Assembly (NCBI RefSeq): GCF_022760755.1
Contig: NZ_JAIVFP010000001.1
Coordinates: 2,398,001 to 2,462,000 of the forward strand
Source of the DNA: Candidatus Rhodoblastus alkanivorans
Lineage (GTDB): Bacteria > Pseudomonadota > Alphaproteobacteria > Rhizobiales > Beijerinckiaceae
DNA: 64,000 bases
Direction: 5' to 3'
Shown piece by piece: positions 1,892 to 25,397 of this stretch. Position numbers and translations under genes: made by a program. The notes beneath the pieces are model-generated. The model had not been told where the DNA came from. It saw only the letters and a list, made by a program, of their open reading frames with translations, and did not search any database. Position 1 is the first letter of the stretch, and every line of letters begins with the position of its first letter.

Positions 1892-4800
1892 TCAGCCGAG
1901 ACGGCCGGAGGCGTGGGCGAGCAGGCTGTATACCTTGCCGGTTTCCGACGTGAGATAGGACCGCGTCAGCAGGCCGTCACGGTCCTGCCGGCTGACGTCG
2001 CCGAGCAGACGCTCGAATTCCTGCAGATAGCGATCGACCGTCAGGCGGAAGTCGTGATCCTCGCCGTAACGGCGGCGCACGTCGTCGAAGGTCTTCTGGC
2101 CCTGAGTCGTATAGAGACGGCGGTTGAACGCCGCGCTCTCGCCGCGGCGGAAGCGGTCCCAGGCGTCGATCAGCGCCGTTTCGTCCACCACCCGGGCGAT
2201 TTCCGCCGACAGGCTGTCGAGCGAATCGGCGGGAGCCGCCGGGCGGCGCGCCGCCGGCTCGTCGGCCGAGGCGCGCGCGAGCAGGTCGCTCATCCAGCCG
2301 CCGCGCTCCGCGGGGGCCGCCGGGGCGGGCGCCGGCAAGGCGGCGGCCGCGACCGGCCGCGCCGCCTGCGGTCGTGAGTCGAAGCGCGGCGTCTCGCGGG
2401 CGGGTTCCCGCCGCGAAGGCGTTTCGCTGCGCGGCTCGAGCGCCGGCTGGGGACGCGCGGGTTCGGGTTCGACCACGTCATAGGCCCGGCCCGAGCGGGC
2501 GACCAGTTCGGTCAGCTCGTTCAGGGCCTGCATCTGCTCGGTGACGATCCTGCGCATGGTCGCAGCCTGTTCACCGGTCTCACGCGGGAGATCGACCATG
2601 CCGCGCTTCAGCTCCTGCCGGGTCGATTCCAGCTCGCGCTGGATTTCGCCGGTCATCGCCCGCAGCTCCTGCGACACGCCCTTGTAACGTTCCGAGGTCT
2701 GTTGGAACAGCTGGTTCATTTGCGCCAGGGTCTGTTCATAGGCGGCGCTCAGCTCGGCGGCCGTCTTCTCGCGTTCGCGCGCCGTCTTCTCGCGCAATTC
2801 GTCATACTGGCTGGTGAGCGCGCCCGCCGTGGCGGAAGTCGCGGAAGACAGGAAGTCGCCGACCTCGCGGGCGCGCGCCTCGGCCTGGGTCAGAGTGCGC
2901 GCGATCATCGCCGAGAAGCCGTTGAGGCGCATTTCATATTCGTTCTGACGCTTCTGGGCCTCGTCATAAAGCGCCTGGAGGCTTTGCATGCGCGCCTCGA
3001 GCGCGGCGTTGATCGCCTCCTGGGCTTCCGCGGCATCGTTGACGCGGGCCTGCAGGCTTTCGTCCACTTGCGCCTGAGCGCGGTTCAATTCCTGCAGGCG
3101 GGCGTCGAAGCCGTGGCGGATTGTGGCGTGTGCTGTGGTCATCTCGCGCAGCGACGACTCCAGCGCTTCCATCTGGTCGTGGATCGCGTGCGCGGCGCCG
3201 CCAATGCCTTCTTCGGTCTGGCGGGCCGCCGAGTCGAGACGGTCCACTTCGCCATGGAGGCTCTCGATGGCGGTCCCGAGCGCGCCGATCCGCGGCGCCA
3301 GGGCGCCTTCGACCTGGGTCAGTCCGGTTTCGGCCTTGTCGATCGTCGCGAGGAGGGCGCGATGGGTTTCCGCCATATTGGCGATCAGCCCGCCGACGTC
3401 CTGCTTCATGCGGCCGCTCGCCTCTTCGAGCGCCGCGGTCATTTCCGCCTGGCGGCGGCCGAGATGCGCGATGAGATCGTTCGAACGCCCGGCGAGCGCG
3501 CCGACCGCGCTCTCGCTGAAAGCGACGATCTGCGATACGACTTCGCCGCCGCGCGTGGTCAGCAGTTCGACCAGATTCGCCCCGCGCGAATCGTACCACT
3601 CATGCAGTTCTGCGACGCGGGCGCCCAATTCGCCGGTGAGCGCCCGTCCGCGGCCGTCGACAGTCTGTTCGATCTGCGCGATGCGGCGGTCCATTTCCTC
3701 GCCGACCTGGCCGAGGCGGCCGACCACATTCTGCTCGAACAGGTCGATCTGGCCGCTGAGACTGACGGCGATCTCATTGGCGCGGCCGCCGAGCGCAGCA
3801 TCGATTTCATCGGTCTTGGCGGACAGCTGCCGGGCGACGGCGTTGGAGCGGGCGAGAATGATCCCGTCGAGCTCGCGGCCCTTGGCCTCGAGTGTGTCGC
3901 GGACCTCGCCAAGGCGACCGGCGATCTTCTGCTCGAAGGTCGCGACATGGCTGTCGAAGCTGGCGGCGATCTCGTCGGCGCGGCCGCCGAGCGTGGCGTC
4001 GAGCTCCCTAGTCTTCGTGGCGAGCTGATGGGCGAGGGCGTTGGAGCGCGACGCAATGACCGCGTCGAGATCGCGGCCCTTGGCGTCGAGCGTCTCCTGG
4101 ACCTCGCCGAGACGGCCGACCACATTCTGCTCGAACATCGCAATATGGCCGCCGAGGCTCGCGGCGATCTCGCTGGCGTGTCCGCCCAACGTGGCGTCGA
4201 GTTCCCCGGTCTTGGCGGAGAGTTCGAGAGAGAGGGCGTTGGAGCGCGACGCAATGGCCGCGTCGAGTTCGCGGCCCTTGGCGTCGAGCGTCTCCTGGAC
4301 CTCGCCGAGGCGGCCGACGACATTCTGCTCGAACATCGCAATATGACCGCCGAGGCTGGCGGCGATCTCGCTGGCGCGTCCGCCGAGCGTGGCGTCGATC
4401 TCCTCGGCCTTGGCCGAGAGCTCCCGGGTGAGGGCGTCGGAGCGCGACAGAATGATCGCGTCGAGCTCGCGGCCCTTGGCTTCGAGCGTGTCGCGGACCT
4501 CTCCGAGGCGGCCGACGACATTGCGCTCGAACAGATCGATATGGCCGCCCAGATGGCCGGAAATCTCGGTGGCGCGGCCGCCGAGCGTGGCGTCGATCTC
4601 CTCGGCCTTGGCCGAGAGCTCCTGGGTGAGGGCGGTCGAGCGCGCGAGGATGATCTCGTCGAGTTCGCGCGCCTTGGCGTCGAGCGCCCTGCCGACCTCG
4701 CGGCCGCCTTCGCCGAGCACTTTGGCGATATCGATGGCGCGGCCCGCCAAAGCGTCGTTGAGCTGGCGCGAGCGCGTCGAGAGGCCAGTCTCCACCTTGG

Positions 4801-7800
4801 CGATGAGATCGTCCATGACGCGGGCGACGTCCTCGGTCTTGCTGGCGGCTCTATGGTCGAAGCGATCGATCTGCTGCTCCAGCAGGTTCGCCGTCTCTTC
4901 GGCGCGGCGGCCGAGGCGCGTCTCGAGCTGGGCTCCGTGAATGTTGATCGCCATTTCGATGGCGGCGAGCCGCGAGGAGATCGCGGCGGCGAGGGCTTCC
5001 GACTGCTCGCCGATCCGCGTGGAGGCGCTGGCGCCCAGATCGGAAATGGTGTTGTCGAAACTCGCCAGCGTCTCGCTAAGCATGGCGCGCAGGGCTTCGG
5101 TTTCCGTCCGGATGTGCTCCACCGAGCCTTCGCCGCCCGAACGCAGGAGCTGATCCAGCGCCGCGAACTGGCCGACGAAATCGGCCTTGAGCCGTTCGGC
5201 GTGGTCGCTGAGCCGCGCCTGGGTCTCGGCGACGCCGGTCGCCATGCGGTCCTCGAAGATTTCGAGATGCGAAGCGATTTCCTGCGACATGCGCGCGGCG
5301 TGGTGGCCGAGGCTGCCCGAGGCGTCCTCGCCGCCGCGCAGCATCGCCTGTTCGAAGGCGTCGAACCGCTCCGACAGGGCTTCGGCGACGCGCTCGCCAT
5401 GGACGCCGATCGCCGCGACCGCCTCCGAGGCGAGCTGGGCGAAACGCTTCTGGCTTTCGGCGACCCGCGAGGCAATGGATTCGGCGGTCTGCCCAGCGGT
5501 GGCCGCGAAATTGCGGTCGAGATTCGCCGTCTGCGCCAGCAAAGCGGAGACGGTTGCGTCGGCGGCCTCCTGGAAGCGCGCCTGCGCGGCGGCGACATTG
5601 CCGCCAAGGACGTCCGCGATCGACCCGCCGATCTCGGCCAGCGCCTGGCGCAGCAGCTCGGTCTGTTCCGAAGTTTGCGCGTTGAAGGCGCCGAACTGGG
5701 CCTGGAAGGTCTCGGCGTGGCGCGCGAGCGCCGAGCGCTGGGTTTCGGCTGTCGCGGCGACGCTCCTTTCGAGGCGTTCGCCCTGGGCGGCGACGGCTTC
5801 GATCGCCTGCTGCGCGCTTTCGCCGACGCGTTGCGCGAAAGCCTCCGCCTGGCTGACGAAGGCCGCGAGGGGCGCGTCAGTGACAGCGGCGACGCTCTGT
5901 TCCAGGCGCTCCGTATGGGCGGCGACCGCCTCGATCGTATGCTGCGCGGCCTCGCCGAAGCGCTGCTCGAACGCCTCCGTTTGGCTGACGAGGGCGGCGA
6001 GGGGCGCGTCGGTCGCGGACGCGACGCTCCGTTCGAGACGCTCCGCCTGGGCGGCGATCGCTTCCGTCGCCTGTTGCGCCGTTTCGCCGAAGCGCCGGGC
6101 CACGGCCTCCGTCTGCTCGACCAGATGGGTCATGGGCGCCTCGACCGCCGAAACGACGCCTTGATCGAGGCGCTCGACATGGGCCGCCATGGCGTCGAGC
6201 GCCGCCTGGGTCGCTTCGCCGAGACGCTGCTCGACCGCGTCAGTATGGCTGGCGAGGGCGGCGATATGGGTTTCGGTCGCGGCGACGACGCCGCGCTCCA
6301 GGCGCTCGCTGTGGGCGACGATGGCGTTGGTCGCCTGCCGGGCGGTTTCGCCGAAGCGCTGCTCGAAGCCGTCGGTATGGCCGGTGAGGGCGACGAGCTG
6401 ACTCTCGGTCGCGCTCGCCACGCCGCGCTCGATCCGATCGCCCTGGGCGACGAGAGCGTCGACGGCCTGTTGCGCGGTCTGTTCCAGCTTCTGCTCGAAG
6501 GCCTGGGTCTGGCTGACGAAGGCGGCGAGCGGCTCTTCGGTCGCGGCGGCGACGCTATGTTCGAGGCGTTCGGTTTGGGCGACGATGGCCCGGATGGTTT
6601 GTTGCGCGGTTTCGCCGAAGCGCTGCTCGAAGGCCTGGGTCTGGCTGACGAAGGCCGCGAGCGGCGCCTCGGTCGCGGCGGCGACGCTTTGATCGAGACG
6701 CTCGACATGGGCGCCGATGGCGTCCAGAGCGGTCTGGGTCGCTTCGCCCAACCGCTGCTCGACCGCGTCGGTATGGCTGCCGAGAGCGGCGATATGGGTT
6801 TCGGTCGCGGCGACGACGCCGCGCTCCAGCCGCTCGCTGTGAGCGACGATGGCGTCGGTCGCCTGCCTGGCGGTCTCGCCGAAGCGCTGCTCGAAGCCTT
6901 CGGTATGGCCGGTGAGGGCGACGAGCTGGCTCTCGGTCGCGCTCGCGACGCCGCGTTCGAGGCGGTCGCCCTGGGCGACCAGAGCGTCGAGGGCCTGTTG
7001 CGTCGTCTGCTCCAGTTTCTGCTGGAAGGAATCGGCATGGCCCGAAAGCGCGGCGATCTGCCTGTCCGCCGCATGAGCGACGCCATGTTCCAGCCGGTCG
7101 GTCTGGGCGACGATCGCTTCAACCGTCTGCTGCGCGGTCTGGCCGAACAGCCGTTCGAAGCTTTCCGTATGGCCGGCGAGCGAAGAGAGCTGGTCCTGGG
7201 TCGCGGCGGCGACCACATGCTCCAGCCGCTCGCCCTGTGCGGCGACGGCTTCGATGGTGTTGTGCGCCGTCTGGGCGAATTGCTCCTGGAAGGCGTTCGT
7301 ATGGCCGACGAGCGCGACGAGCGTCTCCTGCATCGCGCCGCCGACGGTCCGTTCCAGATTCTGGACGTTCTGGGTCAGCGCGCTTTCGACCTGGCCCGTA
7401 TGCGTTTCGAACTGCGTGATCGTCGCCCCGGCGAGGGCTTCGATCCGCTGCTTGAGCGTGTCGGCCTTTTCGCCGATCGCGGCAAGGGCGGATTGGGTCG
7501 CCTCATCCACGATTTCGCGCAGATTGGCGGTATGGCCCGAGACCGATTCGATGGTCTCGCCGGCGACCTGGGCGAATTGCGTATTGAACGCCTGGGTATG
7601 GCCGGCGAAGGCGGCGAGCGTCTCGTTCGCCGCCTGGCCGAAGTTTTCGCGCAGGGCGGCCGCCTGGCTCGCGACCTCTTCCGTGGTCTTGGCGCTGACG
7701 GTGGCGTAGGCTTCGCCGACCGCTTCGACATTGGCGCCGAAATCCTCGATCGTCCGCTGCGTCGTCGCGCCGACATGGCGCTGGAAGGCCTCGGCCTTGG

Positions 7801-9262
7801 TCGTCATTTCCTCGATCGCGGCGGCGGCGGCGGCGGAGAATTCCTCCACCGCGCGCTGGCGATGGCCGGCGAGCGCTTCGGAGACGGCGTCGCCCAGCGA
7901 GGCGAGCTGATTGCGCGCTTCGGCCGACTGCTGGCCGATCTTGGCGCTGACCTCGTCGCCGGTCAGGGCGAGGGCCTGCTGGAAGGCTGGCCCCTGAACG
8001 CCGACCAGATGTTCGAGGCGCGCCGCCTGCTCGGTAAGGCTCGCGGTCCATTGCCGCGAGCGCGCCCCGAGCGTTTCGCCCAGGCGCGCGCCGATCTCGT
8101 CGAGGCCCTGCGACATGCCGTTCGTCCGCTCCTCGGCCTGTTCGAGGAAAGTCGTCGCGAAGCCGCGGAGATCGCCGTCGATTTTCGATGCGCGCGCGTC
8201 GATCAGGCGCGCGGTCTCCTCGCTCGACTGGCTGAAGGTCTGAATCAGGTTGCGGGCGCGCTCGTCGAGCTGGCGCAGAAGCGTCTCGCCGGATTGCAGG
8301 AACGCCGTTTCGATCGCGGAGCCCTTGCCCTCTATGGATTTCGCGATGCGGTCGCCGGTCTGCTCGAGCATTTCGGTCAGCTGTTTCGTCGCCGAGTCGA
8401 GTTCGCCCGCGACCGCCGTATGGGCGTCGCCGAGGGCGCTGGAAATCTGGTCGGCGTTGGAGACGATGGATTCGCGCTCGCTCGCCAGTTCGTTGAGCAG
8501 GACGCGGATGCGGCGCTCGTTGTCGCCATAGGTTCGTTCGAGCGCGGAGACCTCGGCGCGGACCATGGTTTCGAGCTCGCTGGCGCGGGCGAGCGCGCGC
8601 TCTATGCCGTCGCCCATCGAGGCCACTTCGCGGCGGATCGCCTGGCTCAGGGTCACGACCTGTTCGGTGGCGATGGTTTCAGGCTCGGCGAGGCGGATCG
8701 CCACTTCGGCCATGGAGCGGGCGGTGTGGCGCATTTCCTGCGTGCGGCGCAGCACGGCGCCCATGGCGAGGAAGAAGATGACAGGGCCGATCAAAGCGAA
8801 GGCGGAGGCCGCGGCCCGCGGGCTGAACAGCGCGCCGGAGAAAGCGGCGCCGTGGTTGGCGAGGACATAGCCGCTCCACAGGCCGACCCAGATGAGGGAA
8901 GCGAATATTGCGACGGTTAGGGCGCTGGAGCTGGGTTTCGTTTGAAGGGCCTGGAGAATCTGCCCGACCGAAGGCCGGTCGTCGTTGGCCGGGCGGGGGC
9001 TCGACGGCGGACGCTGGGGATCCGGCTGTTTGGCGACAGGCGCCAGCTCGTTGGGCGGCACTTCCGGCAGGCGCGGCGCGGGTTCGGGGGCTTCGGAGCG
9101 CGGCGTCGGCAGCTGGAAATCGAGCTTGGGGGCTTGCGCGGGCGATTCCGGTTCGGGCGCGGGCGTCGTCGAGGCCTCGGGCTCGATATTGAGCCTGAGG
9201 GCATCCTCGATGGCCGACAAAGCGGCTGCCGCCGGATCCTGAGCCTTGTTCGGTGTGGACAT
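1892..9262 (-). CDS. giant membrane-anchored coiled-coil repeat protein (2456 aa)
   Basis: 2456 residues. A Pro/Glu-rich cytoplasmic N-terminus (1-110) is followed by two membrane segments (about 113-135 and 150-170) and then roughly 2000 residues of Ala/Glu/Gln-rich helix. Two repeat classes are visible: about twelve tandem units of 44 residues (4 x 11), and four to five units of 66 residues (6 x 11). Both are multiples of the 11-residue hendecad step seen in apolipoprotein-like and some tethering coiled coils. A Pro-rich linker precedes a conserved-looking globular C-terminus of about 100 residues (from the IDAWDRFRRGE motif onwards). Similar very long proteins in Hyphomicrobiales are annotated as apolipoprotein-like or kinesin-like, without known function. 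The start is the first ATG, with an alanine-rich N-terminus. A scaffold or cell-size envelope tether is an inference only. Confidence 0.85.
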   Translation of the reverse strand: MSTPNKAQDPAAAALSAIEDALRLNIEPEASTTPAPEPESPAQAPKLDFQLPTPRSEAPEPAPRLPEVPPNELAPVAKQPDPQRPPSSPRPANDDRPSVGQILQALQTKPSSSALTVAIFASLIWVGLWSGYVLANHGAAFSGALFSPRAAASAFALIGPVIFFLAMGAVLRRTQEMRHTARSMAEVAIRLAEPETIATEQVVTLSQAIRREVASMGDGIERALARASELETMVRAEVSALERTYGDNERRIRVLLNELASERESIVSNADQISSALGDAHTAVAGELDSATKQLTEMLEQTGDRIAKSIEGKGSAIETAFLQSGETLLRQLDERARNLIQTFSQSSEETARLIDARASKIDGDLRGFATTFLEQAEERTNGMSQGLDEIGARLGETLGARSRQWTASLTEQAARLEHLVGVQGPAFQQALALTGDEVSAKIGQQSAEARNQLASLGDAVSEALAGHRQRAVEEFSAAAAAAIEEMTTKAEAFQRHVGATTQRTIEDFGANVEAVGEAYATVSAKTTEEVASQAAALRENFGQAANETLAAFAGHTQAFNTQFAQVAGETIESVSGHTANLREIVDEATQSALAAIGEKADTLKQRIEALAGATITQFETHTGQVESALTQNVQNLERTVGGAMQETLVALVGHTNAFQEQFAQTAHNTIEAVAAQGERLEHVVAAATQDQLSSLAGHTESFERLFGQTAQQTVEAIVAQTDRLEHGVAHAADRQIAALSGHADSFQQKLEQTTQQALDALVAQGDRLERGVASATESQLVALTGHTEGFEQRFGETARQATDAIVAHSERLERGVVAATETHIAALGSHTDAVEQRLGEATQTALDAIGAHVERLDQSVAAATEAPLAAFVSQTQAFEQRFGETAQQTIRAIVAQTERLEHSVAAATEEPLAAFVSQTQAFEQKLEQTAQQAVDALVAQGDRIERGVASATESQLVALTGHTDGFEQRFGETARQATNAIVAHSERLERGVVAATETHIAALASHTDAVEQRLGEATQAALDAMAAHVERLDQGVVSAVEAPMTHLVEQTEAVARRFGETAQQATEAIAAQAERLERSVASATDAPLAALVSQTEAFEQRFGEAAQHTIEAVAAHTERLEQSVAAVTDAPLAAFVSQAEAFAQRVGESAQQAIEAVAAQGERLERSVAATAETQRSALARHAETFQAQFGAFNAQTSEQTELLRQALAEIGGSIADVLGGNVAAAQARFQEAADATVSALLAQTANLDRNFAATAGQTAESIASRVAESQKRFAQLASEAVAAIGVHGERVAEALSERFDAFEQAMLRGGEDASGSLGHHAARMSQEIASHLEIFEDRMATGVAETQARLSDHAERLKADFVGQFAALDQLLRSGGEGSVEHIRTETEALRAMLSETLASFDNTISDLGASASTRIGEQSEALAAAISSRLAAIEMAINIHGAQLETRLGRRAEETANLLEQQIDRFDHRAASKTEDVARVMDDLIAKVETGLSTRSRQLNDALAGRAIDIAKVLGEGGREVGRALDAKARELDEIILARSTALTQELSAKAEEIDATLGGRATEISGHLGGHIDLFERNVVGRLGEVRDTLEAKGRELDAIILSRSDALTRELSAKAEEIDATLGGRASEIAASLGGHIAMFEQNVVGRLGEVQETLDAKGRELDAAIASRSNALSLELSAKTGELDATLGGHASEIAASLGGHIAMFEQNVVGRLGEVQETLDAKGRDLDAVIASRSNALAHQLATKTRELDATLGGRADEIAASFDSHVATFEQKIAGRLGEVRDTLEAKGRELDGIILARSNAVARQLSAKTDEIDAALGGRANEIAVSLSGQIDLFEQNVVGRLGQVGEEMDRRIAQIEQTVDGRGRALTGELGARVAELHEWYDSRGANLVELLTTRGGEVVSQIVAFSESAVGALAGRSNDLIAHLGRRQAEMTAALEEASGRMKQDVGGLIANMAETHRALLATIDKAETGLTQVEGALAPRIGALGTAIESLHGEVDRLDSAARQTEEGIGGAAHAIHDQMEALESSLREMTTAHATIRHGFDARLQELNRAQAQVDESLQARVNDAAEAQEAINAALEARMQSLQALYDEAQKRQNEYEMRLNGFSAMIARTLTQAEARAREVGDFLSSATSATAGALTSQYDELREKTAREREKTAAELSAAYEQTLAQMNQLFQQTSERYKGVSQELRAMTGEIQRELESTRQELKRGMVDLPRETGEQAATMRRIVTEQMQALNELTELVARSGRAYDVVEPEPARPQPALEPRSETPSRREPARETPRFDSRPQAARPVAAAALPAPAPAAPAERGGWMSDLLARASADEPAARRPAAPADSLDSLSAEIARVVDETALIDAWDRFRRGESAAFNRRLYTTQGQKTFDDVRRRYGEDHDFRLTVDRYLQEFERLLGDVSRQDRDGLLTRSYLTSETGKVYSLLAHASGRLG
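3690..4595 (-). repeat. 66-residue (198-bp) tandem repeats inside the giant coiled-coil gene
   Basis: Four nearly complete units and one partial unit follow each other. Each carries the phrases EIAASLGGHI, FEQNVVGRLGEV, LDAKGRELDA and LDATLGG at the same spacing. The period is 66 residues, i.e. six hendecads. Limits are approximate. Confidence 0.8.
5716..7299 (-). repeat. 44-residue (132-bp) tandem repeats inside the giant coiled-coil gene
   Basis: About twelve consecutive units of 44 residues, each of the form H/QT-x-x-FEQRFGETAQQ ... ERLERGV-x-x-ATE ... ALxG/S. Units 4-7 and 8-11 of the run resemble each other more than their direct neighbours, which indicates a block duplication of four units (528 bp). 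Limits are approximate. Confidence 0.82.
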
Positions 9263-21650: not shown

Positions 21651-21983
21651 ATGAAGAACAGCAATGGCAAGGCCGAGGCGGGCGAAGCCGTCGTCGCGGC
21701 GGTCGAGGCGGATACGATCAATCAGGTGCGCGAGCTTCTGTTCGGCGCCGACAAGCGCGCCACCGACGCGCGTCTCGCGCAGATTGACGACAAGTTCGAG
21801 AAGATCGTCGCGGAATTGCGCGCCGACCTCGCCGCCAAATTCACCGATCTCGAAAATCGCATCGATACTCTGGCGCGCGATGTCGAAAACAGGCGCCTGA
21901 CTTCGATCGACGATATTGGCGCGGCGATCGCCAATCTCGGCGCGACCGTCCGCAACATGGGCGCCTCGGGCAAGGCGCGCTAA
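21651..21983 (+). CDS. small coiled-coil protein, putative partner of the roadblock-OmpA protein and GTPase
   Basis: 110 residues from the ATG at 21651, preceded by a GGGGGTGG stretch. The protein is predominantly helical. A segment around residues 25-45 (NQVRELLFGADKRATDARLA) resembles the start of the OmpA-domain protein two steps downstream (LLKRLLFRSEQSR-L): both share a LLF-x-x-(D/E) motif followed by a coiled coil. This suggests that both bind the same partner. An IS630 element has landed 2 bases after the stop codon, cutting this gene from its neighbours. No function is known for the family. Confidence 0.7.
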   Translation: MKNSNGKAEAGEAVVAAVEADTINQVRELLFGADKRATDARLAQIDDKFEKIVAELRADLAAKFTDLENRIDTLARDVENRRLTSIDDIGAAIANLGATVRNMGASGKAR

Positions 21984-21985
21984 TA

Positions 21986-23139
21986 CCAAGTCCCTGAAAC
22001 TCTGACTCGGCGGGCGATTCCCAAACCGGCGTTTATTTGATTCAACAGGCGAACCAGGAGGTTCGCCATGCCGATTGCCCTTCGAGCAGATTTTGATGCG
22101 CGCTCCATGCGCGTTGCGGCCAAACGCGCGAAGGATGCGGCGCAGGCGCGGCGCTTGTTGGCCTTGGCGGCCATTTATGAAGGCGCCAGCCGCTCGAAGG
22201 CCGCCGAGATCGGCGGCGTCACGCGCCAGATCGTTCGCGATTGGGTGGTGAGATTCAACGCGGACGGCCCTGAGGGCCTGATCAACCGCAAAGCGCCAGG
22301 CCAACCCTCGCGGCTCAACGACGCCCATCGGGCGGCGCTCGCCACCGCAATCGAAAGCGGGCCGATCCCAGCCGCGCACGGCGTCGTGCGCTGGCGCCTC
22401 GTCGATCTTTGCCAGTGGATGTTCGAGGAATTCCGCGTCACCATCGCCAAACAGACGATGAGCCGGGAGCTGCGGGCGTTGGGCTACCGCAAGCTGTCGG
22501 CGCGCCCCAAGCATCACGCCCAGGCCGAGGGCGCGATCGAAGATTTTAAAAAAGTTTCCCCGCGCGCCTGGAGGAAATCGCGCGGGAAAAAGGCGTCGCC
22601 GCCGACAAAATAGAAGTCTGGTTCGAGGACGAGGCCCGGATCGGGCAGAAGAACAAGATCACCCGCCGCTGGGCCAAGAAGGGAACGCGCCCCAGCGCGC
22701 CCCATGATCAGCGCACCGCCTCGACCTATATTTTCGGCGCGATCTGTCCCAAGGACGGCAAGGGCGCGGCGCTCGTCCTGCCCAAGTGCGACACCTTCGC
22801 CATGAACCTCCACTTAGAGGAAATCGCCAAAAATGTCGCGCCCGGGGCGCATGCCGTCCTCATCCTCGACCAGGCGGGCTGGCACACGACGGACAAGCTC
22901 GCCGTTCCAGCCAACATCACCATCCTGCCGCTGCCGCCGAAATGCCCCGAACTCAATCCAGCCGAAAACGTCTGGCAGTTCCTGCGCGACAACTGGCTGT
23001 CGAACCGCGTCTTCAAATCCTACGACGACGTCGTCGATCATTGCTGCCACGCTTGGAACAAACTCATCGATCAGCCGTGGCGCATCATGTCGATCGGATT
23101 GCGTGACTGGGCGCACGGGTTCTGATCAACGAGACTTGG
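21986..23139 (+). mobile_element. IS630-family insertion sequence
   Basis: 1154 bp. Terminal inverted repeats begin CCAAGTC on the left and end GACTTGG on the right, and the element is flanked on each side by TA (21984-21985 and 23140-23141), the target always duplicated by IS630/Tc1-type elements. It carries one transposase gene in two frames. Exact excision would leave only six bases between the stop of the coiled-coil gene and the GTG of the OmpA-domain gene. Confidence 0.9.
22068..23125 (+). CDS. IS630 family transposase, two frames joined by a -1 shift
   Basis: The first frame (22068-22613) encodes the helix-turn-helix part (SKAAEIGGVTRQIVRDWVVRF). The DDE catalytic part is in the -1 frame and runs to 23125, with the motifs WFEDEARIG, LDQAGWHTT and PPKCPELNPAENVW. 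The frames meet at a T4A6G run (22545-22554); reading back one base there gives the continuous family sequence FPARLEEIAREKGV. IS630 elements often use programmed frameshifting at such A runs, so the element may still be active; a plain frameshift mutation is the alternative. Confidence 0.85.
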
Positions 23140-23145
23140 TATAAG

Positions 23146-24894
23146 GTGTCGGTCCCGGCGCAGCCGGACCCTGGGACGCAAGACGCGACGCTGCGGGGCG
23201 CCGCCGAGGCGGGCAACCAACTCGGCTTGCTGAAACGGCTGCTCTTTCGCAGCGAGCAGTCGCGGCTCGACGCGATTCAGGCCCAGACCGAGGCTTTGGC
23301 GGCGCGGCTCGGCGACCAGGCCGGGCTGGAGGCGGCGACGGCGGAAATCCTCGCCGGCGCCTTGCGGCGCGCGGAAGTTTCGGGCCATCGCGAATTGTCC
23401 GAGGCCTTGGCGCCGCTGGTGGTTACGGCGATCCGGTCGGAGATCGCCAATTCGCGCGACATGATGGTCGAGGCGCTCTATCCGATTACCGGCCGGCTGG
23501 TCGCCGCCGCCGTGTCGAACGCCTTCCGCGAATTGGTGGAGAACATCAACGCCCGGCTCAACCGGCTGCTGTCCACGCGCCTGTGGCGGCTGCGGCTGCG
23601 CAGCCTGCTGACCGGGCGGCCGCTGGCGGAAATCCTGCTCGAAGCCGCTCAGCGTCCCCGGGTGCGCCGCATTCTCGCTCTGGAGCGCGACAGCGGCCGT
23701 CTGCTCGCGCATTGGCCCGAAGACAGCGCGCCGGATTCCGCGGACGAAATCGTCAGCGGGATGCTCGCCGCGATCAGCCAGTTCGCGGCCCAGGCCTTCG
23801 CGTGCGGGCATGGCGAATTGCGCACGCTGGACATGGGCGCGAGCCGTCTGCTGCTGCGGGCCTCGGCGCGCCTCATCGTCGCCGCCGAATTTTTCGGCGA
23901 ACCCCGTGCGGACGACGAAGCGCGGATGGATTCGGCTCTGCTGTCGTTGATTTCAACCTCGCCCGGGCCACCGGGCGAGGGCGCCTTGGCGCGAATTGCG
24001 GCCGATTTCGTCGACGCGGAGCCCAAAAAAAGCGGAGCCGCGCGCAATGTCGCTCTGGCGGCGCTGGCGCTGCTGCTGATCGGCGGGGCGGCCTATTGGC
24101 CGGCGCGCAATTTCCTGTGGGAGCGACGTCTCGACGACGCTTTCGCCCGCGCCGTGGCGGCGCAGCCGGGCCTCGCCGACTTTCCGCTGAAATTGACGGT
24201 CGACGCCGGAAAAAAACGCGCGGCGCTGACCGGGCTCGCGCCGCCCGCGGCCGATCTCGCCGCCCTGGCGCGCGCTATCGACGGCGCTGGTACGCCTTAT
24301 CGTCTGGAGATGCGGATCGCGCGGGTCGCGACGCCGGCCAGCGTCGAGGCCGCCGCGCGCCAAAACAACAAAGCGAGCGGCGAGGCGGTCGCCGTTCTGG
24401 CAGGACGGCTCGACCGGATTCAGGCGACGGTTGCGGAGCAGCAGGGCCGCGCGGAGGCTTTGTCTGGTCAGGTCGCTCGGCTTGAAGCCGCAGAGACGGC
24501 GCAGCGGGCCGCCGCGGCGACGCCAGCCGCCCGGCTGGCGCGCCTCGCCGCGGGGACGACGCTCTGGTTCGATGACGGAACGGATTTTCTCGAAGCCGAG
24601 ACAGCCCACGCGCAAATCGCCGCGCTGGCGGCCGAGATGAAGCGCAGCGGTTTGTCCCTGCGGGTTGTGGGTTATACGGACAGTCTGGGCTCGACCCAGA
24701 AAAACATGAAGCTTTCCCAGGCTCGCGCTGAAGCCGCCGTCGCCGCGCTGATTGCACAAGGCGTTGATTCCAGTAAACTTGCTGCTGTAGGCCGAGGCGA
24801 CGAATCCCCGATCGCCGCCGAACATGGATCGGACAGCCGCCGCAACAGGCGGGTCGTCTTCGAAGTGATCGGCCCAGCGGAGCAGATACCTTGA
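23146..24894 (+). CDS. membrane protein with cytoplasmic roadblock-like domain and periplasmic OmpA domain
   Basis: 582 residues, GTG start. Parts in order: an N-terminal helical region with the LLF motif (25-70), a region at about 172-251 (RRILALERDSGRLLAHW ... LRTLDMGASRLLLRA) that looks like a roadblock/longin-type domain, one membrane helix (301-319), a small periplasmic domain, a coiled coil (about 395-440), and a C-terminal OmpA peptidoglycan-binding domain (about 471-577, with GYTDSLGS and SxxRRNRRVVFEV). The next gene, a Rab-like GTPase, overlaps it by 4 bases. Roadblock proteins commonly bind small GTPases (MglB-MglA), so this protein may tether the GTPase to the cell wall. The domain call for the roadblock part is by pattern only. 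Confidence 0.8.
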   Translation: MSVPAQPDPGTQDATLRGAAEAGNQLGLLKRLLFRSEQSRLDAIQAQTEALAARLGDQAGLEAATAEILAGALRRAEVSGHRELSEALAPLVVTAIRSEIANSRDMMVEALYPITGRLVAAAVSNAFRELVENINARLNRLLSTRLWRLRLRSLLTGRPLAEILLEAAQRPRVRRILALERDSGRLLAHWPEDSAPDSADEIVSGMLAAISQFAAQAFACGHGELRTLDMGASRLLLRASARLIVAAEFFGEPRADDEARMDSALLSLISTSPGPPGEGALARIAADFVDAEPKKSGAARNVALAALALLLIGGAAYWPARNFLWERRLDDAFARAVAAQPGLADFPLKLTVDAGKKRAALTGLAPPAADLAALARAIDGAGTPYRLEMRIARVATPASVEAAARQNNKASGEAVAVLAGRLDRIQATVAEQQGRAEALSGQVARLEAAETAQRAAAATPAARLARLAAGTTLWFDDGTDFLEAETAHAQIAALAAEMKRSGLSLRVVGYTDSLGSTQKNMKLSQARAEAAVAALIAQGVDSSKLAAVGRGDESPIAAEHGSDSRRNRRVVFEVIGPAEQIP

Positions 24895-25397
24895 ATTTTT
24901 CCGCCAAACTCATGCTGTTGGGCGATATTGGCGTCGGAAAGTCGTCGCTCGCGAAGCGGCTGATGTTCAACAAATTCGACGCCGATTACAAGACCACGAT
25001 CGGCGTGGACATCCTGACCCACGAATTGACCCTCGACATCGACTCCGGACCGGTGAAGGCGAAATTGCTGATCTGGGACACGGACGGCGACTTCGGCCAG
25101 CATATTTTCAAGTCGGTCTATCTCTCCGGCGCCTCGGGCGCGCTGGTGGTCGCCGACGCTTCGCGCCCGCCGACCATCGAGAAAATGTTCGATCTCTCGG
25201 CCGATTTTCTGGAGCGGCTCCCCGGCCGTTCCGTGCGCGCCATCATCAACAAGACCGATATCGTCGCGCCCGACCTGACCAATATCGATCGGCGCGGGCT
25301 GGCGCCGGAACAAGTGTTGTTTTCCAGCGCCAAGACGGGCGAGGGGGTGACGGCGGCCTTCGCCGCCATCGCCACGGACATCTACCGGCGGCTGTAG
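24891..25397 (+). CDS. Rab/Roc-like small GTPase
   Basis: 168 residues, TTG start overlapping the TGA of the OmpA-domain gene (TTGA), which implies translational coupling. G1 is GDIGVGKSSL, the G3 region is WDTDGDFGQ, G4 is NKTD and G5 is SSAK, in the order of Ras-superfamily enzymes. In G3 the usual DTAGQ is replaced by DTDGD, so the catalytic Gln is missing and intrinsic hydrolysis is probably slow or uses a residue from a partner. No lipid-modification signal is seen. The role is unknown; coupling with a roadblock/OmpA protein suggests polarity or envelope sensing. Confidence 0.85.
   Translation: MNFSAKLMLLGDIGVGKSSLAKRLMFNKFDADYKTTIGVDILTHELTLDIDSGPVKAKLLIWDTDGDFGQHIFKSVYLSGASGALVVADASRPPTIEKMFDLSADFLERLPGRSVRAIINKTDIVAPDLTNIDRRGLAPEQVLFSSAKTGEGVTAAFAAIATDIYRRL

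Follow-up and report, generated by a model that had tools for sequence, protein, structure and literature searches.

Why should a Ras-like GTPase that lacks its catalytic glutamine be encoded directly behind a membrane protein with an OmpA domain, and could this neighbour be its partner? The question is raised by a three-gene locus of Candidatus Rhodoblastus alkanivorans, lying in a stretch of 64,000 nucleotides (the window) of contig NZ_JAIVFP010000001.1, positions 2,398,001-2,462,000; coordinates are those of the window unless prefixed. The original prediction, made from the sequence alone, described here a three-gene unit and a GTPase switch that would be tethered to peptidoglycan. The genes are real and all lie on the plus strand, but they are not contiguous, an insertion sequence (IS) of the IS630 family being lodged between the first two, and a fourth component is encoded elsewhere. 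Taken as a whole, what had been observed is partly confirmed and its interpretation partly supported. We consider it probable that the locus encodes a signalling module of the Group 1 Rup type, in which a wall-anchored protein with a roadblock fold engages the adjacent GTPase, the output passing through a protein whose N-terminal domain (N-domain) is conserved.

The locus and its products

The three genes and the relevant parts of their products are the following:

21651-21983, plus strand: small protein of 110 amino acids with the look of a coiled coil, first gene of the operon (open reading frame)
21726-21746, plus strand: VRELLFG segment of the small protein, residues 26-32
23146-24894, plus strand: protein of 582 amino acids with roadblock-like domain (predicted), membrane helix and OmpA domain, GTG start (the OmpA protein)
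23230-23256, plus strand: LKRLLFRSE segment of the OmpA protein, residues 29-37
23248-23610, plus strand: conserved helical region of the OmpA protein, residues 35-155, with invariant P90, E99, S103, Y112, P113 and G116
23611-23973, plus strand: predicted roadblock/longin-like domain of the OmpA protein, residues 156-276 (structure model and Foldseek; sequence profiles negative)
24049-24105, plus strand: membrane helix of the OmpA protein, best window residues 302-320 (hydropathy 1.88 over 19 residues)
24568-24849, plus strand: OmpA-like domain of the OmpA protein, residues 475-568 (PF00691, E 1.5e-16)
24891-25397, plus strand: Ras-superfamily small GTPase of Group 1 Rup type, 168 amino acids, TTG start (PF00071, E 3.3e-19)
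25074-25091, plus strand: G3 motif WDTDGD of the GTPase, residues 62-67, without catalytic Gln (alignment of 81 GTPases)

The OmpA protein has the architecture that had been announced for it, with one membrane helix and a C-terminal OmpA-like domain, by family a peptidoglycan-binding domain. Its sole stretch above 1.6 in a 19-residue hydropathy scan lies around residues 297-320. Among relatives, a hydrophobic segment of at least 1.6 is found in 72/74 OmpA proteins, with a second such segment elsewhere in 34/74, and PF00691 was detected in 37 of the 38 members scanned with Pfam. The overlap of its stop codon with the GTPase start, also part of the original prediction, is a TTGA at 24891-24894. 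The coiled coil of the small protein was judged by the look of its sequence and not with a coiled-coil predictor; its Pfam matches all fall below cut-off, the best being Baculo_PEP_C (E 2.5e-6).

The GTPase and its family

The closest PDB sequences of the GTPase are Ypt31 (E 6.8e-18) and Rab11A, while its nearest relatives are encoded by two metagenome-assembled genomes labelled Proteobacteria (78-79% identity) and by named Rhodoblastus records (66-70%). Across 81 aligned GTPases the G3 motif reads WD[TI]DG[DNE], with D63 present in 81/81. Position 67 is Gln in none (0/81) and is occupied by D in 68, N in 12 and E in one sequence, so that the absence of the G3 Gln, first read off a single protein, proves to be a family feature (81/81).

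The G3 Gln is likewise missing from Group 1 of the Rup family, as defined in the survey of Wuichet and Sogaard-Andersen 2014 (PMC4316618), of which the parts on Rup, MglA and conservons are drawn on here and below. Group 1 members have 150-240 amino acids and G1-G5 motifs like those of eukaryotic Ras/Rab, and they keep the G3 Asp. Their neighbours are a coiled-coil gene, a gene whose unknown domain often precedes a membrane helix and an OmpA domain, and an output gene, either for a kinase or for a cyclic di-GMP enzyme, with an N-terminal region that contains an invariant Gln (PMC4316618). The present GTPase, with its 168 amino acids, PF00071 and Rab-type PDB matches, fits this description in size and type, and Asp is kept and Gln absent throughout the 81 sequences. 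Its two companions also have counterparts there, and the three genes match the described operon, a type that is thus already known. A Group 1 member from Mesorhizobium loti is mentioned in the same source; one of our loci, L082, is from an M. loti strain. MglA, in contrast, has lost the G3 Asp and is coupled to an mglB gene, whereas no Rup protein is so coupled in Table 1 of that paper. Here the Asp is kept, and our genome gives no match to PF03259 at E<=0.001, therefore no separate MglB is in sight. According to this survey no Rup member had been characterised experimentally as of 2014, and a limited literature search found no later experimental work on Rup GTPases.

Conservation of the gene pair

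Genome contigs were scanned with a 13-row GTPase alignment, yielding 117 relatives, of which 80 loci were kept and surveyed with residues 1-460 of the OmpA protein. In 73/80 an OmpA protein is encoded directly upstream of the GTPase, its end lying within 60 nt of the GTPase match, and in 45 of these 73 the two genes share a 4-nt NTGA stop/start overlap. Four of the seven exceptions (L068, L071, L075, L078) have just 15-821 bp of upstream sequence; the others are the degraded loci L056 and L057, and L123, whose contig also holds L127 with the pair. An orthologue of the small gene lies upstream of the GTPase in 68/80 loci.

The same association is seen at the genome level. Among 60 genomes (ours included), 15 have the GTPase and 13 the first 478 residues of the OmpA protein, 13 having both and two the GTPase alone. 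When 199 genomes of the order were searched at E<=1e-10, domain region and GTPase were found together in 18 and were both missing from 181, neither ever occurring without the other. As the 18 genomes are related (12 of 100 genera), they do not stand for 18 independent events. Conserved adjacency of the two genes, the expectation of the original prediction, is therefore strong. In one genus (G258, G296, G356, G402) domain and GTPase matches lie on opposite strands, 920-946 bp apart, an arrangement examined in detail in G356.

More distant GTPases were also observed beside the same domain protein, at L179:6594-7088 and at L177 ~6150-6690 (minus strand), with G3 motifs WDLAGED and WDIEGDM, without Gln.

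A predicted roadblock-like fold

An AlphaFold2 (AF2) model of residues 156-276 built from 43 aligned rows has a predicted local distance difference test score (pLDDT) of 84.3 and a predicted template modelling score (pTM) of 0.75; that of a longer stretch, residues 25-298 (45 rows), is weaker (pLDDT 73.1, pTM 0.49). The conserved region of residues 35-155 appears as helices, with a low-confidence middle (block means 51-59). In both models residues 156-276 run helix-strand-strand-helix-strand-strand-strand-helix, the elements in domain numbering being H5-13, E17-25, E31-35, H43-62, E72-74, E78-84, E88-95 and H100-116. The Robl_LC7 fold has the order helix, two strands, helix, three strands, helix. 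This is the order predicted here, and a roadblock-like fold had been guessed for residues 165-255 of this protein.

Foldseek searches of the PDB returned 32 matches at E<=1e-3 for the long model and 46 for the short one, and the best 50 rows were listed for each. In 44 of the 50 listed for the short model, the title names a roadblock/longin protein or complex (MP1-p14, Ragulator/LAMTOR, MglB, roadblock, Mon1-Ccz1); the remaining six, two human complexes whose titles are unspecific and four axoneme/dynein entries, we take to be Ragulator and dynein light chains. Among the 50 listed for the long model, 28 titles are MglB, Ragulator/LAMTOR or roadblock, and the other 22 are clathrin-adaptor, COPI, TRAPP, Mon1-Ccz1 or CPLANE entries, whose matched chains are presumably of the longin type. 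Template modelling (TM) scores among the listed rows of the short model are 0.44-0.66 by query and 0.45-0.70 by target. MglB (6h5b_C) aligns with TM 0.65/0.64 and a root-mean-square deviation (rmsd) of 2.9. These models suggest that residues 156-276 adopt a roadblock/LC7-like fold. For a domain formerly unnamed, this predicted assignment would be a new element, as far as the examined literature tells.

The shared segment and the output component

The small protein and the OmpA protein had been thought to share an LLF-x-x-(D/E) motif. Its core, [LIVM][RK]xLL[FLVIYM], is indeed common to both, being found in 64/69 small proteins and 68/74 OmpA proteins (shuffled means 0.5 and 1.5), but the core followed, three positions later, by an acidic residue or Gln occurs in 65/74 OmpA proteins and only 6/69 small proteins, the acidic position being typical of the former alone. 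The LLF motif was found in 0/63 kinases, therefore it is no common mark of all parts of the system.

These kinases contain the N-domain, of about 120 residues. A protein with this domain is encoded within 7 kb of the GTPase in 63/80 loci, 40 of which also hold a response regulator like that of L065; the N-domain proteins scanned with Pfam, at L065, L082, L103 and L133, are histidine kinases. In our genome a search covering 21 genomes located the N-domain at C1:2376633-2377022, on the same contig and ~43 kb from the small gene. It sits in a PAS-HisKA_3 kinase, and the response regulator encoded behind this kinase shares 62% identity with its counterpart at L065. Within the genus, the N-domain is present in 7/7 genomes that have the GTPase and in 1/4 of those that do not.

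In G356 the N-domain lies next to the GTPase and is joined to a LuxR-type helix-turn-helix (HTH) instead of a kinase (GerE, E 8.5e-17). A gene of this composition is located as follows:

L185:1785-2456 = L178:5285-5956, minus strand (L185): kinase-type N-domain with LuxR-type HTH, overlapping the GTPase gene

Since the N-domain is combined with either a kinase or a LuxR-type HTH, it is the constant part and the output is exchangeable; the LuxR-type gene is a direct transcription output of the module.

It had been proposed that the N-terminal region of the output protein supplies the missing Gln in trans (PMC4316618, in the part on Group 1). Over 65 aligned rows of the kinase N-domain there is no invariant Gln column, the best reaching 39/65, and this suggestion is therefore unsupported in this clade. 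One Arg column is kept in 64/65 rows, near the end of the alignment and before the kinase core, and is only a lead.

A possible mechanism

The following scheme would unite these components. The OmpA protein would span the inner membrane, with its C-terminal domain holding peptidoglycan and its cytoplasmic side bearing the roadblock-fold domain. The latter domain, probably as a dimer, would engage the GTPase and set its nucleotide state, by analogy with MglB and MglA. Because the G3 Gln is missing, the GTPase would be expected to hydrolyse GTP slowly when alone and to need a partner for this. Through the LL(F) segment that they share, the small protein and the N-terminus of the OmpA protein probably bind each other or a common partner. 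The GTPase or its complex would then act on the output N-domain, and the signal would leave through a histidine kinase, here with a response regulator and at a site unlinked to the operon, or, in one genome examined, through a LuxR-type DNA-binding domain. In such a scheme the GTPase switch would be tethered to peptidoglycan and might respond to it.

Points against the module and alternative explanations

Several observations weigh against this scheme. Some concern the fold itself. Many Foldseek rows align at an rmsd of 6-10 Å, which makes the superposition loose for all but the best rows. Comparison by hhalign of the 43-row domain alignment with 19 Robl_LC7 sequences (from 30 loci fetched) gave a probability of 0.2%, no better than the controls (PAS 0.2%, GTPase 0.5%). 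A hmmsearch of PDB sequences with the domain returned 13 matches at E up to 10, without any roadblock, and when 38 members were scanned with Pfam at E up to 0.1, PF03259 was not among the best 25 of 48 families, which included one weak match to Fuz_longin_1 (1/38, E 0.012) and BON in 4/38. The window protein also gave no PF03259 among its Pfam matches at E up to 10. As the attempt to prove roadblock homology by sequence profiles failed on all these counts, our claim is one of fold similarity and not of proven descent.

One may then ask whether the fold goes back to convergence or to a very distant ancestor, its role being confined to dimerising the OmpA protein, while the GTPase would act on the kinase and the gene pair would be kept for co-regulation only. 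The lack of sequence similarity to Robl_LC7 agrees with this. So do paralogues of the OmpA protein that have kept the roadblock-like domain and lost much of the N-terminal part, in G006 (near the contig start) and G008:

L182:7245-8792, minus strand: OmpA-protein paralogue
L183:800-2155: OmpA-protein paralogue

Neither has a GTPase, small-gene or kinase N-domain neighbour within the stretch examined, which also counts against the proposed module. On the other hand, members of the roadblock/longin superfamily often serve Ras-superfamily GTPases, the listed structural matches belong to this one superfamily, and the presence and absence of domain and GTPase are matched over 199 genomes. We consider this reading as a whole unlikely.

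A second group of observations concerns the need for the OmpA protein. In L056 (G007) and L057 (G003) the same deletion has removed all but the final 77-85 residues of the OmpA gene, and no small gene was detected, either at L056, where just 2.3 kb of upstream sequence exists, or in the 4.5 kb searched at L057. Their GTPases are nonetheless intact and diverge from each other with a ratio of nonsynonymous to synonymous substitution rates (dN/dS) of 0.19. As both genomes thus have an intact GTPase, together with the kinase N-domain, the roadblock-like protein is not strictly required. In addition, 17/80 loci have no N-domain within 7 kb, among them all six Rhodoblastus-type loci (L056-L061).

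Persistence of a GTPase under purifying selection, and of the kinase N-domain, after loss of the OmpA gene would be understandable if the roadblock-fold protein were not a regulator but an anchor or effector platform, recruiting the GTPase to the envelope or being recruited by it, by analogy with Ragulator and Rag. The missing GTPase-activating residue would then come from another protein, for example the kinase N-domain or the small protein. The first two Foldseek matches of the isolated domain, chains of the MP1-p14/Ragulator scaffold, point the same way. Yet the frequent 4-nt overlap and the matched occurrence tie the OmpA protein to the GTPase, and the N-domain rows offer no invariant Gln that could act in trans. 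We regard a platform of this kind as a serious possibility, the less probable one beside the regulatory module.

An insertion in the operon of this strain

The element that separates the small gene from the OmpA gene is:

21986-23139, plus strand: IS630-family insertion sequence, flanked by TA at 21984-21985 and 23140-23141

Both its ends start with CCAAGTC. The transposase is split over two frames, 22068-22613 and 22802-23125, which match NF033545 with E 3.7e-25 and 1.1e-25 (89 and 90.7 bits, below the model cut-off of 100); the positions of the frames would suit a frameshift of -1 close to the A-rich stretch TTTTAAAAAAGTTT. A second copy with different flanks in the same genome (G000:C1:1490899) shares only the element, the TA flanks and, by chance, one extra base per side, so that the ends can be placed exactly. 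As only 4/1158 positions differ between the copies, the insertion looks recent.

The element ends 6 nt before the OmpA start. With 1156 bp removed, the small-gene stop would lie 91 nt from the LLF segment of the OmpA gene, compared with 26-122 nt (median 41) at 66 loci of relatives. As this spacing is short, the element breaks up a compact operon just ahead of the ompA start, and it may lower expression of the OmpA protein and GTPase genes in this strain.

Does the locus then amount to a decaying remnant, its ompA-GTPase pair cut off from first gene and promoter and the module unexpressed? The closeness of a recent-looking insertion to the ompA start would be in keeping with decay, as would the loss of most of the OmpA gene in two relatives. 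Against it, none of the three reading frames is disrupted, the genome has the kinase and the response regulator, and the dN/dS of the window GTPase against six relatives is 0.19-0.33. We therefore doubt that this is the right account of the locus, and retain the signalling module as the more probable one.

Elsewhere in the window, positions 1892-9262 (minus strand) encode a highly repetitive, coiled-coil-like protein of 2456 amino acids, rich in LAAFVSQTQAFEQRFGETA-type repeats.

Relation to known systems

Roadblock/longin folds serve small GTPases at membranes in eukaryotes. Ragulator/LAMTOR-Rag, TRAPP and Mon1-Ccz1 supply such folds among the listed Foldseek matches; those systems differ from the present one in having no peptidoglycan anchor, and their resemblance to the domain is one of fold. 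With MglA-MglB of Myxococcus and Thermus the module shares a small Ras-like GTPase and a partner of roadblock fold (here predicted), and MglB is among the top Foldseek matches. MglB acts on MglA as a GTPase-activating protein and, via its C-terminal helix, as a guanine nucleotide exchange factor (according to the part of PMC11016934 drawn on). Unlike MglB, the roadblock-like domain here is part of a larger protein with further helices, a membrane helix and an OmpA domain, with no Robl_LC7 sequence similarity detected, and the GTPase keeps the G3 Asp (DxxG) that is lost in MglA (PMC4316618). The actinobacterial conservon (Cvn), which comprises a kinase, the roadblock protein CvnB, CvnC and the GTPase CvnD (PMC4316618), likewise unites a GTPase, a roadblock-fold protein (here predicted) and a histidine kinase in one system. 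However, the membrane part is here the OmpA protein instead of the kinase, a response regulator is present and the GTPase family differs.

The closest likeness is to the Group 1 Rup operons, with their coiled-coil gene, their gene for an unknown domain, membrane helix and OmpA, their GTPase without G3 Gln and their output gene with an N-terminal region of its own. What sets our locus apart is that the kinase pair is unlinked and the operon split by the IS630 element. The output N-domain of this clade lacks the invariant Gln, a LuxR-type output is not named in the Group 1 section of the 2014 paper, and the domain that was unknown there is now given a predicted fold.

Two other assignments were considered and rejected. 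A defence system is not indicated, PADLOC giving four ZorB/MotB matches, all of them in the OmpA part, whereas small protein, GTPase and kinase had none. A candidate GTPase-roadblock fusion in G265 (a 415-residue frame) matches the GTPase at residues 238-411, and its preceding part matches none of the four system models. G051 has a 257-residue open frame around the GTPase; no systematic search for fusions was made.

Meaning for the Rup family

Rup is the family closest to eukaryotic Rab/Ras. It was set apart from MglA in 2014 by the absence of coupling to MglB homologues (PMC4316618, in the part drawn on). Our results raise the prospect, which we put forward tentatively and hold to be somewhat doubtful, that MglA and Rup, the two great families of Ras-like GTPases in prokaryotes, both use partners of roadblock fold. 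The Rup partner would be anchored through the inner membrane to the wall and could turn the state of the envelope into a GTPase state and this into a phosphorelay or transcription. Such a partnership might predate the split of MglA and Rup as well as the eukaryotic Rab and Rag systems. If the domain is indeed a roadblock domain, it would be a concrete candidate for the missing Rup regulator, and an apparently untested GTPase family could be put to the test in rhizobia and purple bacteria that grow in culture. On the Rab-like side, the connection of bacterial Ras-like GTPases with eukaryotic roadblock/longin proteins would also gain a member.

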